Assembly (NCBI RefSeq): GCF_014640155.1
Contig: NZ_BMGK01000004.1
Location: 169,350 to 233,349 of the forward strand
Length of the DNA: 64,000 nt
Direction of reading: 5' to 3'
Source of the DNA: Planktosalinus lacus
Lineage (GTDB): Bacteria > Bacteroidota > Bacteroidia > Flavobacteriales > Flavobacteriaceae
Program-made: the position numbers and the translations under genes
In this document: in pieces, positions 18,476 through 21,991 of the stretch
Layout: the number at the start of each line of letters is the position of its first letter
How positions within the stretch are numbered: the first letter of the stretch is position 1
The notes under the pieces: model-generated
Told to the model about the DNA's origin: nothing
The model's input: the letters and a program-made list of their open reading frames with translations, nothing else
The model's database searches: none

Positions 18476-19597
18476 ATGAAGTATTACATCATTGCCGGAG
18501 AGGCCTCAGGAGATTTACACGCTTCCAATTTAATGAAAGAAATCAAGCTCAAGGATACTTCAGCTGATTTTCGATTTTGGGGTGGTGAACTCATGGAAGC
18601 TCAGGGAGGTGTTTTAGTAAAACACTACCGGGAGTTGGCTTTTATGGGCTTTATTGAAGTACTTCTCAACCTGGCCACCATTTTAAAAAACATCAAATTC
18701 TGCAAGCAGGATATAGAAAACTTTCAGCCTGACGCACTAATATTTATCGATTATCCAGGCTTTAATATGCGCATCGCCAAATGGGCTAAACAAAAAGGCA
18801 TTCCCACACATTATTACATTTCACCACAAATATGGGCCTGGAAAGAAAACCGCATCAAAGACATCAAACGCGACGTGGATGCGATGTATGTCATCCTTCC
18901 GTTTGAAAAAGACTTTTATGAAAAGAAGCACGATTTCCCTGTGCATTTTGTGGGACACCCTTTGATTGATGCCATTTCAAACCGGCCTTTGATCAACCCG
19001 AAAGACTTCAGGGAACATTTGGGACTGGATGCCCGGCCCATCATTGCCCTTTTGCCCGGCAGCCGTAAACAGGAAATCAAAGTGATGCTTTCGGTCATGC
19101 TGGAGGTAGTCAATGAATTCCCAAATTACCAGTTTGTGATTGCCGGTGCACCCAATCAGGACGAAGCCTTTTACCGACAGTTTATCAAAAAGGAAAACGT
19201 GCACTTGCTACTCAATAAAACCTATGATTTACTGAGTGTTTCCTATGCTGCCCTGGTTACTTCAGGAACGGCAACTCTGGAAACCGCTCTCTATAAAGTA
19301 CCCGAAGTGGTGTGCTATAAAGGAAGCCGCATTTCCTATGAAATTGCCAAACGCGTAATAAAACTCAAATACATTTCGTTAGTAAACCTGATCCTGGATA
19401 AAGAAGTGGTCACCGAACTGATTCAAACAGATTTTAATAAAAAGCGTTTAAAGGAAGAACTTGAAAAAATCCTGGATGATTACAAACGCGCCAGTTTATT
19501 TCTGGATTATTATGATTTGGAAAAGAAACTTGGTGGAAAAGGTGCCAGTGCTAAAACCGCTCAACTGATCGTGGACAGTTTAAAACAACCTCGCTAA
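18476..19597 (+). CDS. lpxB: Lipid-A-disaccharide synthase
   Basis: 373 residues, normal length. It joins UDP-diacylglucosamine and lipid X to the lipid A disaccharide on the inner face of the cytoplasmic membrane. Start MKYYIIAGEASGDLHASNLM, then LIFIDYPGFNMRIA, YISPQIWAWKENRI, FVGHPLIDA, LLPGSRKQEI and TSGTATLETALYKVPEVV are the family's conserved blocks (GT19). Its stop overlaps the start of the NlpC/P60 gene by one base (TAATG), which indicates translational coupling. Confidence 0.97.
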   Translation: MKYYIIAGEASGDLHASNLMKEIKLKDTSADFRFWGGELMEAQGGVLVKHYRELAFMGFIEVLLNLATILKNIKFCKQDIENFQPDALIFIDYPGFNMRIAKWAKQKGIPTHYYISPQIWAWKENRIKDIKRDVDAMYVILPFEKDFYEKKHDFPVHFVGHPLIDAISNRPLINPKDFREHLGLDARPIIALLPGSRKQEIKVMLSVMLEVVNEFPNYQFVIAGAPNQDEAFYRQFIKKENVHLLLNKTYDLLSVSYAALVTSGTATLETALYKVPEVVCYKGSRISYEIAKRVIKLKYISLVNLILDKEVVTELIQTDFNKKRLKEELEKILDDYKRASLFLDYYDLEKKLGGKGASAKTAQLIVDSLKQPR

Positions 19598-20181
19598 TGA
19601 AATCGATTGTTTGTACTTTACTACTGAGTTTGCTCATAATTTCCTGCGGGTCTTCCCGAAAAAAATACGATTCAAAAATTAGTTTGGACCCTGAGGATCG
19701 ATCAATTCCTAAAAACCGTGTTTCCAAGCCTGCCACTAAGCACAAAGAGGTGGTTATTTATAATGAAGACACCCCCAGAGATGAATTGCCTGAAGCTCTT
19801 AAAATAAATATAATTGTAGAAACTGCGCGTTCATATCACGGCACCCCTTATAAATATGGTGGAATGACTCAAAAAGGGATTGATTGTTCAGGCTTGGTGT
19901 ATAATTCCTTTAAAGAAGGAGACATTATTTTACCCCGCATTTCGAGAGACATCGCCCGGGAAGGGAAAAAAATAGCATTTCATGAAATAGAAAAAGGCGA
20001 TTTGGTTTTCTTCAAAACCAATCGAAACCGCAATGTCATAAACCATGTGGGCATCGTGGTAGATATCTTTCCGGGAAAAGTTTTATTTATTCATTCCTCT
20101 ACTTCACAAGGGGTTATTGTATCATCACTTGATGAAACCTACTGGAACCAGACGTTTGTCGAAGCCCGAAGGGTTTTGTGA
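19597..20181 (+). CDS. NlpC/P60 family lipoprotein (C40 endopeptidase)
   Basis: 194 residues. A lipoprotein signal ends at Cys17 (LIISC), giving an envelope-anchored protein. After a basic linker the NlpC/P60 domain runs from about 70 to 194. The catalytic Cys97 lies in KGIDCSGLVYNSF, His150 in NHVGIVVD, and a third polar residue is probably His166 (FIHSSTSQGV). It should cleave stem peptides of peptidoglycan. It overlaps lpxB by one base. No terminator was found right after it; the next hairpin belongs to the phhA leader. Confidence 0.93.
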   Translation: MKSIVCTLLLSLLIISCGSSRKKYDSKISLDPEDRSIPKNRVSKPATKHKEVVIYNEDTPRDELPEALKINIIVETARSYHGTPYKYGGMTQKGIDCSGLVYNSFKEGDIILPRISRDIAREGKKIAFHEIEKGDLVFFKTNRNRNVINHVGIVVDIFPGKVLFIHSSTSQGVIVSSLDETYWNQTFVEARRVL

Positions 20182-20223
20182 TTTTATTTTAATATTTTTT
20201 CTCCCTCTCATAATTTTTTTCAT

Positions 20224-20231
20224 TAGATTTG
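20224..20231 (+). promoter_or_regulatory. Candidate -7 box (TAGATTTG) of the phhA leader transcript
   Basis: TAGATTTG fits the Bacteroidota -7 consensus TAnnTTTG exactly and would start transcription near 20238, about 9 bases before the leader ORF. The -33 region (around 20201-20207) lacks a good TTTG, so the promoter is plausible rather than proven. Confidence 0.5.
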
Positions 20232-20246
20232 AATTTTACAAGCACA

Positions 20247-20309
20247 ATGAAAAATCTAAACAATACTTATTATTACTATCCAATTCTTACAAGAAGAATC
20301 GGACAGTGA
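20247..20309 (+). CDS. Tyrosine-rich leader peptide of phhA
   Basis: A 20-codon ORF, ATG at 20247 and TGA at 20307-20309, reading MKNLNNTYYYYPILTRRIGQ. Four consecutive Tyr codons (20268-20279) sit in the first half. It is followed 31 bases later by an intrinsic terminator that lies just before phhA, whose product makes tyrosine from phenylalanine. The layout is that of a ribosome-mediated attenuator, in which slow decoding of Tyr codons would favour read-through. The ORF is too short to judge by coding statistics; its support is the codon run, the hairpins and the downstream gene. Confidence 0.7.
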   Translation: MKNLNNTYYYYPILTRRIGQ

Positions 20310-20373
20310 TGTATTGTTAAAAAATAAATACGTTAACCTAAAATCCCGGTTCTGACAGAACCGGGATTTTTTT
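20283..20373 (+). promoter_or_regulatory. Attenuator region with alternative hairpins before phhA
   Basis: Four segments can pair in two ways. Segment 1 (20283-20288, ATTCTT) pairs with segment 2 (20294-20299, AAGAAT) over a 5-base loop. Segment 2 (20295-20302, AGAATCGG) can instead pair with 20346-20353 (CCGGTTCT), all 8 positions with one G-U; this would block the terminator. Segment 3 (20341-20354) with segment 4 (20356-20369) forms the terminator. A ribosome halted on the Tyr codons would cover segment 1 and leave 2 free to pair with 3; one that reaches the stop codon would cover segment 2. Pairings were found by eye, not by energy calculation. Confidence 0.65.
20341..20373 (+). terminator. 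Intrinsic terminator in the phhA leader
   Basis: AAATCCCGGTTCTG (20341-20354) pairs perfectly with CAGAACCGGGATTT (20356-20369), and the T-run extends to 20373. It lies 20 bases before the phhA start and 31 bases after the leader stop codon, so it would cut off phhA unless an alternative fold forms. It would also end any transcript running on from the lpxB-NlpC operon. Confidence 0.85.
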
Positions 20374-20393
20374 ATGCCTAAAAATGAAGCGCT

Positions 20394-21128
20394 ATGCAAC
20401 AAAAGATGAACACTTACACCGTCGAAGACCAAAAAGTATGGAAACTTCTTTTTGACCGCCAATCTGAAAACCTGAAGATTAAAGGTTCCAAAGACTATCT
20501 GGAGTCGTTATCGTTAATGCGGTCCGTTTTAAACGGAAACGATATTCCGGAATTTAAAAAAATGAACCGCTGGTTTGAGTCAAAAACAGGCTGGAAAATA
20601 GAAGTGGTCCCGGGATTGATTCCTGTGGAAGATTTCTTTGAACTGCTTTCGCAAAAGCGGTTTTGTTCGTCTACCTGGCTGCGCAGTTTTGAAAATCTTG
20701 ATTATCTTGAAGAGCCTGATATGTTTCACGACACCTTCGGGCATATTCCGTTATTGGCAAATCCTGTGTTTTCAGAGTTTGTCTATGAGTTTGGAAAGCT
20801 GGGGAAGGAATTTATCAATGATACCGAAAAACTGGTTCAGTTGCAACGCCTGTACTGGTTTACGATCGAGTTTGGGGTAATTAAAGAAAGTGGAATGATA
20901 AAATCCTATGGGGCCGGGATTATTTCGTCTTTTGGGGAAACCAATCAAATTTTCAATCAGGAAGCCAACTTTTTCCCATTTGATATTGAAACCATTTTAA
21001 ACAAACCCTTTAGAACAGATGTGATGCAGGAAGATTATTTTGTGATTGAGTCACTGGAACAACTGTATGCTTCTCTTGAGGAAGTAAAAAAAATATTGCA
21101 GACACCTGTTCCAGCCGTAAACTTTTAA
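20394..21128 (+). CDS. phhA: Phenylalanine 4-monooxygenase
   Basis: 244 residues from the ATG at 20394; the ATG at 20406 is an alternative. It hydroxylates phenylalanine to tyrosine with a pterin cofactor and O2. The non-haem iron ligands are His112 and His117 in MFHDTFGHIPLL and Glu159 in YWFTIEFGVIKESG, and SYGAGIISSFGE follows. Only the catalytic domain is present, with no N-terminal ACT domain, as usual in bacteria, so control is more likely at expression. The leader upstream provides such a control. Its end overlaps the convergent symporter gene by four bases. Confidence 0.96.
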   Translation: MQQKMNTYTVEDQKVWKLLFDRQSENLKIKGSKDYLESLSLMRSVLNGNDIPEFKKMNRWFESKTGWKIEVVPGLIPVEDFFELLSQKRFCSSTWLRSFENLDYLEEPDMFHDTFGHIPLLANPVFSEFVYEFGKLGKEFINDTEKLVQLQRLYWFTIEFGVIKESGMIKSYGAGIISSFGETNQIFNQEANFFPFDIETILNKPFRTDVMQEDYFVIESLEQLYASLEEVKKILQTPVPAVNF

Positions 21129-21991
21129 GCCGTTTTTGGTTTTCTTGTGCCTATGTAAATCATCAGCAATACGGCCGGAAACATAATGATGCTGTAAATC
21201 GCCGACGGTATCGTCATGACTGAGTTTTGCAGAATGCCGGCAGCAATGGCAATGCCCAGCGTGCCGTTTACAATGCCCACCTCAACGCCCACGGCCACCG
21301 CCCGGGCTTTGTTTTTGGTGATGGCTTTGGTGATATAATAACCGGAGAGCATCCCCAGCAAGTTGAGCAATAAGGATAACGGACCGGCTTTGATGAAAAA
21401 TTCGACAAGGTTTGCCCGTTCTTTAATTAGCACGGCTGCAATTATCAGCACTAAAAATACAGCTGAAAGTATTTTCACGGGGCGTTCCGCTTTGTGGGAG
21501 AGTTTGGGATATTTGCTGTGAATAAACATCCCAACGCATACCGGAACAATGGTAATCACCAATATCTGACCAATGGTTTTAAAAAACGGAAGTTCAATCA
21601 CCTGACTTTCCCCCATAAACTGCAACATCCCAAAATCAACCAGAAGGGGAATTGTAAAAACCGTAATAACACTTGCAGTGGCGGTTAAGGTAATGGAAAG
21701 CGCCACATCGCCTTTGGCTAAGTGCGTGATCAAATTGGTGGTTGCCCCACCGGGGCAAGCAGCCAGTAAAACAAAACCCACAGCCAGCTCAGGCTGCAAA
21801 GGAATTAAATACAACAGACCAAATGTCAATGCCGGAATAAAAAGCAGTTTCAACACCAGCCCCACGCCCACCGCTTTGGGAAACAAAATCACATTCCTGA
21901 AATCTTTTGGTTTTAGCGTCAACCCCATGCCCAGCATAATGATAAACAGGGCAAGGGGTAGAAAAAGTTGGGTGAGGAGGTTTGATTCCAA
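21125..21991 (-). CDS. Bile acid:sodium symporter family protein
   Basis: 288 residues with about nine hydrophobic helices. The start MESNLLTQLFLPLALFIIMLGMGLTLKP, the FVLLAACPGGATTNLITHLAKGDVALSITLTATASVITVFTIPL block and the C-terminal AVGVEVGIVNGTLGIAIA are the hallmark repeats of the BASS/SBF family. In free-living bacteria these import organic anions such as pantoate, pyruvate or sulfated compounds with sodium; the substrate here is unknown. The gene converges with phhA and follows the AT-rich orphan at 21995. Confidence 0.92.
   Translation of the reverse strand: MESNLLTQLFLPLALFIIMLGMGLTLKPKDFRNVILFPKAVGVGLVLKLLFIPALTFGLLYLIPLQPELAVGFVLLAACPGGATTNLITHLAKGDVALSITLTATASVITVFTIPLLVDFGMLQFMGESQVIELPFFKTIGQILVITIVPVCVGMFIHSKYPKLSHKAERPVKILSAVFLVLIIAAVLIKERANLVEFFIKAGPLSLLLNLLGMLSGYYITKAITKNKARAVAVGVEVGIVNGTLGIAIAAGILQNSVMTIPSAIYSIIMFPAVLLMIYIGTRKPKTA

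Follow-up and report, generated by a model that had tools for sequence, protein, structure and literature searches.

What controls phhA in Planktosalinus lacus, where a short reading frame with four tyrosine codons in a row and an intrinsic terminator precede the gene? We addressed this question in a stretch of 64,000 nucleotides (G000:C4:169350-233349, hereafter the window, meaning this whole stretch) from a host genome of 2.97 Mb in 39 contigs with 99.98% completeness. Our reading, to which we assign a probability of roughly 0.9, is that the phhA leader is a ribosome-mediated attenuator of the trp type that senses charged tRNA-Tyr and controls phhA, an enzyme that would here make tyrosine. 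An earlier note on this DNA had described a 20-codon ORF with its run of four Tyr codons, a promoter-like box, a terminator and two alternative pairings, and all of these lie in the sequence where it had placed them (Table 1).

Table 1. The phhA leader and its gene, in positions of the window.
Feature	Position	Strand	Basis
Sigma-A type -7 box TAGATTTG (TAnnTTTG)	20224..20231	+	read in sequence
Predicted transcription start	~20236	+	rule of a box at -12 to -5 (PMC9723704)
Leader ORF MKNLNNTYYYYPILTRRIGQ, 20 codons plus TGA	20247..20309	+	sequence; kept across phhA loci
Four Tyr codons TAT TAT TAC TAT, predicted regulatory codons	20268..20279	+	sequence
Protector hairpin, 23 bp (5' side, Tyr codons; 3' side, antiterminator segment)	20259..20318	+	fold
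Antiterminator segment AGAATCGG, within the last leader codons (R-I-G)	20295..20302	+	shuffles, swap tests, folding
Intrinsic terminator, 14 bp (arms 20340-20353 and 20357-20370, T-run to 20373)	20340..20373	+	
Antiterminator partner CCGGTTCT in the left terminator arm	20346..20353	+	
phhA, phenylalanine 4-monooxygenase, 244 aa	20394..21128	+	Pfam Biopterin_H 9.5e-44; NF008877

The protein encoded by phhA scores 251 bits against NF008877, above the cut-off of 247, and 240.1 bits against TIGR01267, below the cut-off of 264.75. Within positions 18476 to 21991, lpxB and a gene for an NlpC/P60 peptidase lie upstream of phhA, and a bile-acid-type transporter gene lies downstream in convergent orientation. 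When all 64 kb were scanned for short ORFs whose amino-acid run precedes a terminator, 6 terminator sites emerged, and the phhA leader is the only one with four of one residue within six codons (the others have three). Runs of four Tyr codons, counted in any frame, number 19 in the host genome, not more than the 33 of the reversed pattern, and only the one before phhA lies inside a short ATG ORF holding the run.

The RNA of this region can adopt two competing arrangements. The antiterminator segment pairs with its partner in the left terminator arm over 8 of 8 positions, one of them G-U, and a duplex of this quality was equalled in 0 of 200 shuffles. A small hairpin of ATTCTT (20283-20288) with AAGAAT (20294-20299) forms the tip of the 23-bp protector hairpin. 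The minimum-energy fold consists of protector plus terminator and reaches -42.4 kcal/mol against -19.5 for shuffles (z -6.5); when the leader is folded without the right terminator arm, z is -3.6 against shuffles.

This layout recurs upstream of phhA in related genomes. We collected relatives of the 244-aa PhhA in the GTDB genome collection and took the best 80 of 586 confirmed ones (L004-L083), which together with the window make 81 loci; L032 and L044 were removed for too little upstream DNA, leaving 79. A strictly defined Tyr leader (ATG ORF of 8 to 40 codons, with three or more Tyr among five codons and no farther than 300 nt from phhA) is present in 55 of these 79 loci, compared with a mean of 1.3 and a maximum of 4 in 50 sets of dinucleotide shuffles. 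A chance Tyr run is ruled out by these numbers, and the conservation of the Tyr run among relatives that the earlier note had called for is borne out. At least four Tyr in five codons are found in 31 of the same 79 loci (best 80 of 586 plus the window), while the reverse strand has a Tyr run in only one. In the same search with other residues, Leu comes next (18/79) and the remaining eighteen reach at most 8 each. Under a looser definition (at least two Tyr in five codons, GTG and TTG starts allowed), a leader followed in order by a terminator (dG of -12 kcal/mol or lower, 20 to 140 nt behind the leader start) stands before phhA in 59 of the 79 loci. Four of these (L024, L066, L071 and L076) were set aside by judgement as misfits to the common layout, and the resulting set of 55 loci was used for all counts of geometry, arm swaps, folding and promoters, with the four kept in a test of the left terminator arm over all 59. 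Outside the 59 are L026, with a Tyr-rich ORF 400 nt upstream, and L082, which has a Tyr-run leader with no terminator behind it.

The Tyr runs of the 55 loci comprise 164 TAT and 40 TAC codons, and the two interchange among phhA loci while the in-frame run is conserved. Record labels of leader-bearing loci include Psychroflexus, Flavobacterium, Fluviicola, Crocinitomix, Saprospiraceae and Chitinophagales. Two records labelled Glaciecola amylolytica (L065) and Actinomyces viscosus (L041) carry a phhA with leader near the Fluviicola-like ones and are perhaps mislabelled or contaminated. In one sibling genome (L003, L109, L005), phhA contains an in-frame TAG behind an intact leader, through either sequencing error or decay.

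Across the 55 loci, the antiterminator segment begins 20 to 33 nt (median 26) past the first Tyr base and a median of 12 nt ahead of the stop codon's last base; the stretch up to the terminator measures 21 to 48 nt, and in 49 of the 55 loci at least 60% of the antiterminator is sequestered upstream. Its pairing is specific to each locus, as swap tests demonstrate: over the 55 loci, each segment with its own left arm gives -9.70 kcal/mol on average compared with -7.68 for permuted arms (0/2000), and when every distinct arm sequence is represented by a single locus (24 loci) the values are -9.53 and -7.40 kcal/mol (again 0/2000), some relatedness effects remaining among the loci. In a sliding 20-nt window, this preference for the own arm peaks at the predicted segment, with starts at +18 and +24 from the first Tyr base (z of -4.7 and -4.5 for the 24 loci and of -7.6 and -7.5 for the 55). 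It declines in the neighbouring windows at +12 and +30, which overlap these, and disappears elsewhere. The protector's preference for its own pairing is strongest from +4 to +26 and fades to about -16 relative to the same base.

We relied on the swap test instead of column-wise covariation, with the MAFFT register seeming to differ between subgroups. In MAFFT alignment A1, 95.0% of the cells in the terminator helix are paired and 24 show a double change (0/500 shuffles). For the protector tip, 61.0% of cells are paired and 70 show a double change (0/500 each); sliding it by -1 does about equally well, and the number of pairs with a double change is not raised (435/500). For the antiterminator the signal in the MAFFT register is weak, in that 67.0% of cells are paired (80/500 shuffles as high) with a covariation score at 18/500, and a slide by -1 is equal. 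Taken one by one against shuffles, the antiterminator duplexes reach p of 0.05 or lower in 29 of 59 loci and 0.01 or lower in 15.

Folding with a masking ribosome allowed us to predict when each arrangement should form. For a stalled ribosome, the RNA was folded up to the end of the left terminator arm, with a mask that extended 12 nt from the start of the first Tyr codon; an antiterminator was called at 5 or more pairs and a terminator at 6 or more. With the ribosome on the first Tyr codon, the antiterminator is predicted in 49 of 55 loci, and with any Tyr codon in the A site in 54; setting the reach of the ribosome to 9, 15 or 18 nt gives 45, 52 and 54 of 55. Free RNA has no antiterminator pair in 45 of 55 loci, yet it nonetheless forms the antiterminator in 9, which counts against the model. 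With a ribosome at the stop codon, assumed to cover 15 nt from the first base of that codon, all 55 of these selected loci have the start of the segment covered and form the terminator. When the full set of 59 loci is considered, 48 have 7 or more left-arm bases paired upstream, compared with a mean of 17.2 and a maximum of 23 for shuffled spacers; 5 or more are paired in 53, a level for which shuffled spacers already give 32.4 (maximum 41). Together with the locus-specific pairing of the swap tests, the masked folding of the 55 loci agrees with the earlier proposal that the folds exclude each other just as in trp-type attenuators. The region combines the elements by which such attenuators are recognised, namely an ORF with cognate codons, a terminator between this ORF and the gene, an antiterminator that excludes it and, by geometry, coverage of the segment from the stop codon.

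We therefore picture the attenuator as follows. RNA polymerase would start about 11 nt before the leader ORF, and a ribosome would load at once; to our knowledge, Bacteroidota use no Shine-Dalgarno sequence. When Tyr-tRNA is ample, the ribosome would pass the Tyr codons and reach the stop codon, where it would cover the antiterminator segment, and after its release the segment would be locked within the protector hairpin. Either state would let the terminator form and end transcription before phhA. When Tyr-tRNA is scarce, the ribosome would stall on the Tyr run and the protector would open, enabling the freed segment to pair with the left terminator arm so that polymerase reads into phhA.

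The same hairpin could be explained quite differently as the terminator of the upstream NlpC/P60 peptidase gene, which stops at 20181 on the same strand as phhA, with phhA transcribed from a start after the hairpin and the Tyr ORF being incidental; intrinsic terminators are, after all, common between genes. Promoter positions argue against this scenario. The flavobacterial sigma-A box is described at -12 to -5 of the transcription start (PMC9723704), and 44 of 55 loci have its motif TANNTTYG in the 40 nt that precede the start of the leader (shuffled sequences average 3.3, with a maximum of 8), but 0 of 55 have it between terminator and phhA. A start after the hairpin, named by the earlier note as one observation that would speak against attenuation, is disfavoured by where the boxes lie, in terms of starts predicted from them. 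Moreover, the gene upstream of the leader varies, with 25 clusters in the 52 loci compared and an orientation that is plus in 27 and minus in 25, and therefore leader and hairpin, which stay with phhA throughout, belong to this gene. Given box position, neighbour variety and the Tyr run conserved in 55 of 79 loci, we reject a terminator of the upstream gene or a start after the hairpin as highly improbable.

The same boxes place the leader ORFs close to the predicted 5' end. The predicted 5' UTR is 11 nt in the window, and among the 44 loci with a box it is 0 nt in 9, -1 in one and at most 7 nt in 30 (e.g., L007, L012 and L052), with a maximum of 19. In F. psychrophilum, 5.5% of mRNAs are given as leaderless (PMC9723704), and in F. 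johnsoniae the leader exceeds 10 nt in 87% of the predicted transcripts (PMC6847099); the predicted UTRs of the phhA leader ORFs would be short for flavobacteria. Of the 55 leaders, 26 have an A at -3 and 24 have one at -6, which is not striking.

Leader peptides that sense drugs exist, and some leader C-termini resemble each other among loci (RIG, GTE), as might be expected if the attenuator sensed a general slowing of translation or an effect of the nascent peptide instead of Tyr-tRNA. However, the similar C-termini coincide with the bases of the antiterminator (R-I-G is what its segment encodes in the window), and Tyr is the one amino acid clearly enriched in the leaders. Leaders of related layout moreover match their genes, with Tyr runs before tyrA, Phe/Tyr before pheA and His before hisG, so that we regard this explanation as very unlikely, if the least so of the three alternatives. 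Least probable of all is that the ORF is untranslated and that its RNA is read by a T-box, a riboswitch or an RNA-binding protein. Alternative terminator and antiterminator structures are common to T-boxes, which read tRNA directly without translation, to riboswitches and to protein-bound leaders, and there is a sub-threshold Rfam match to PyrR (31.1 bits vs 54). Yet the in-frame Tyr run is conserved despite the interchange of TAT and TAC, and no Rfam family reaches its gathering score at the window leader or at 11 related loci, the sole match in the window being a tRNA. The T-box in particular has no match at gathering score at these 12 leaders and none in the permissive list; the amino-acid leaders of Rfam appear below threshold (Thr_leader, 25.8 bits vs 55, E 0.0047; Phe_leader, 17 vs 55). 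A T-box or another known Rfam leader was therefore rejected.

In this model, PhhA would make tyrosine for the cell. Bacterial phenylalanine hydroxylases (PAH) are usually described as catabolic, and genetic data compiled for GapMind support biosynthetic use of PAH in Dyella, in Legionella and, among Bacteroidetes, in Echinicola (PMC7311316). Prephenate dehydrogenase (PF02153) is absent from the window genome and from the two phhA-bearing siblings; of the two siblings without phhA, G004 has it and G003 (92% complete) has none. Counting matches with E below 1e-20 as full-length, PF02153 is found in 15 genomes of the 80 loci (best 80 of 586). In the 57 leader-bearing genomes (the 55 loci plus L024 and L066), it is absent from 45 and present in 12, with weak matches below the cut-off in three of the 45 (L006, L058 and L059) and with many MAGs among the genomes, for which some absences may be gaps. 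Because 45 of 57 leader-bearing genomes lack a full-length prephenate dehydrogenase, PhhA is probably their route to Tyr. The 22 leaderless loci have PF02153 in 3 cases, or in 10 when shorter matches over the cut-off are counted; leaderless loci mostly lack it too, and its absence therefore tracks this kind of phhA and not the leader itself. In the family of the window genome at large, 205 of 249 genomes have a prephenate dehydrogenase match over the cut-off. All 5 genomes of the window's genus encode 4-hydroxyphenylpyruvate dioxygenase, and catabolic use of PhhA is therefore possible alongside. On the attenuator reading, genomes that lack prephenate dehydrogenase should make their tyrosine through PhhA.

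Across the phylum, most of the compact PhhA genes read lack the leader. PhhA relatives at 1e-30 occur in 34 of 198 genomes, and among the best 30 of these 34 loci, window included, the leader is present in 3 (the window, L164 and L170) and absent in 27. Within the family, no Tyr-run leader with ATG, GTG or TTG start precedes the compact PhhA genes L104, L106 and L108 or 24 long aromatic hydroxylases of 575 to 713 aa; one long hydroxylase (L113) follows a short ORF with three scattered Tyr, and L105 (the same gene as L164) has a Tyr-run leader with a GTG start. On a quick tree of 111 PhhA proteins, with long branches present and L005 left out, the leader label changes 9 to 11 times compared with about 37 when shuffled (0/500 as low), suggesting by these few changes that the leader is mostly inherited together with phhA.

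Similar leaders stand before other genes of amino acid biosynthesis. A covariance model built from the MAFFT alignment, which kept the terminator stem alone (8 pairs), matched in 95 of 395 genomes of the window's order at E of 0.01 or lower, and the 30 of these loci that were read include phhA leaders; weaker matches mix other attenuators with terminators lacking an evident leader. A Tyr-run leader (such as VNFNNGTYYYRIFNSDLG) with terminator lies directly before tyrA in 12 other genomes of two genera (L144, L146, L150, L151, L153, L155, L158, L161, L163, L193, L195 and L196), which were found by similarity, through the covariance model and a pattern search, and are not a census. The pattern of these leaders matched in 13 of 80 genomes, 5 times before tyrA, 6 times in long ORFs and twice without leader or gene at hand. 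Pfam confirmed prephenate dehydrogenase for the three genes tested (L150, L153 and L155), and the remaining nine were assigned by similar N-termini. The terminator ends 14 to 22 nt before tyrA in 10 loci and 81 nt before it in L153 (L155 is outside this count). When a stalled ribosome is assumed, 11 of the 12 have 5 or more left-arm bases paired upstream, weakly (-4.4 to -7.0 kcal/mol), and the box puts the start codon at the first base of the RNA in 12 of 12 by predicted starts. A Phe/Tyr leader with terminator precedes pheA in L143 (PDT 2.4e-58), and the sibling G004, which lacks phhA, has MATHHFFYYNSFFTFFYWKKAGLLLCYDK and a terminator before pheA-tyrA (in L205, on the reverse strand, with the leader at 2698 when the sequence is reverse-complemented). 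A His-run leader, for instance MRNQNTHHHFYTCPQAS, and a terminator precede hisG in L140, L145, L148, L152, L154, L156 and L159, of which the L145 gene was tested (HisG 1.4e-49).

Taken jointly, these loci tip the balance slightly towards a Tyr-specific class of attenuators in Flavobacteriales and their neighbours that follows whichever enzyme makes Tyr, sitting on phhA where tyrA is lost, on tyrA where it stands alone and, as a mixed Phe/Tyr leader, on pheA-tyrA, with a leaderless or nearly leaderless sensor ORF and ribosomes loading on the emerging 5' end. If true, this class would represent attenuation built for cells without Shine-Dalgarno initiation, and tyrosine would join the amino acids sensed by leader-peptide attenuation. 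phhA in these bacteria would then be a biosynthetic gene induced by tyrosine shortage, and its leader could serve as a reporter for transcription-translation coupling in Bacteroidota.

The attenuators of the enteric trp, his and pheA operons have a run of cognate codons in a short ORF and mutually exclusive protector, antiterminator and terminator; a ribosome at the stop codon covers segment 2, and the gene product makes the amino acid that is sensed. The phhA leader resembles them in its codon run, exclusive folds, stop-codon coverage and a product that would be the sensed amino acid. Unlike them, it is predicted to sense Tyr and to control a phenylalanine hydroxylase in Bacteroidota, without Shine-Dalgarno sequence, and has its ORF -1 to 19 nt from the predicted transcription start (44 loci with box). 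T-boxes differ from it by reading tRNA directly, and none matches at the phhA leader. What T-box control of tyrosine genes would share with it is that uncharged tRNA drives the choice between terminator and antiterminator. In a survey from 2005, attenuators are listed for His, Thr and Phe and T-boxes for Tyr (PMC1262725). A survey of 2010 knew leader peptides from Proteobacteria and Actinobacteria only, before its own case in Firmicutes (PMC2965389). More recently, sORFs reminiscent of leader peptides were reported in B. thetaiotaomicron (PMC7366714) and a Phe-codon uORF before aroF in Acholeplasma (PMC8632094). The PAH enzymes of Dyella, Legionella and Echinicola provide a Tyr route, partly without prephenate dehydrogenase, as in the genomes with a phhA leader, and the part of that work consulted describes no regulation (PMC7311316).

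Also close to the phhA leader are the strong clues for leader-peptide attenuation reported upstream of amino-acid operons in F. psychrophilum, which concern the same bacterial class and the same general mechanism; the main text of that study makes no mention of tyrosine, phenylalanine or phhA, and overlap is possible (PMC9723704). A Tyr-codon attenuator of phhA or tyrA was not found in the open-access literature searched, which is a part of the whole, in agreement with the earlier note's remark that such control of phhA was not known to it, with flavobacterial leader-peptide attenuation in general having already been proposed (PMC9723704). The kind of mechanism is classical; as far as we searched, the sensing of Tyr, phhA as a target, the exchange of targets between phhA and tyrA, and a sensor ORF predicted to be nearly leaderless are new.
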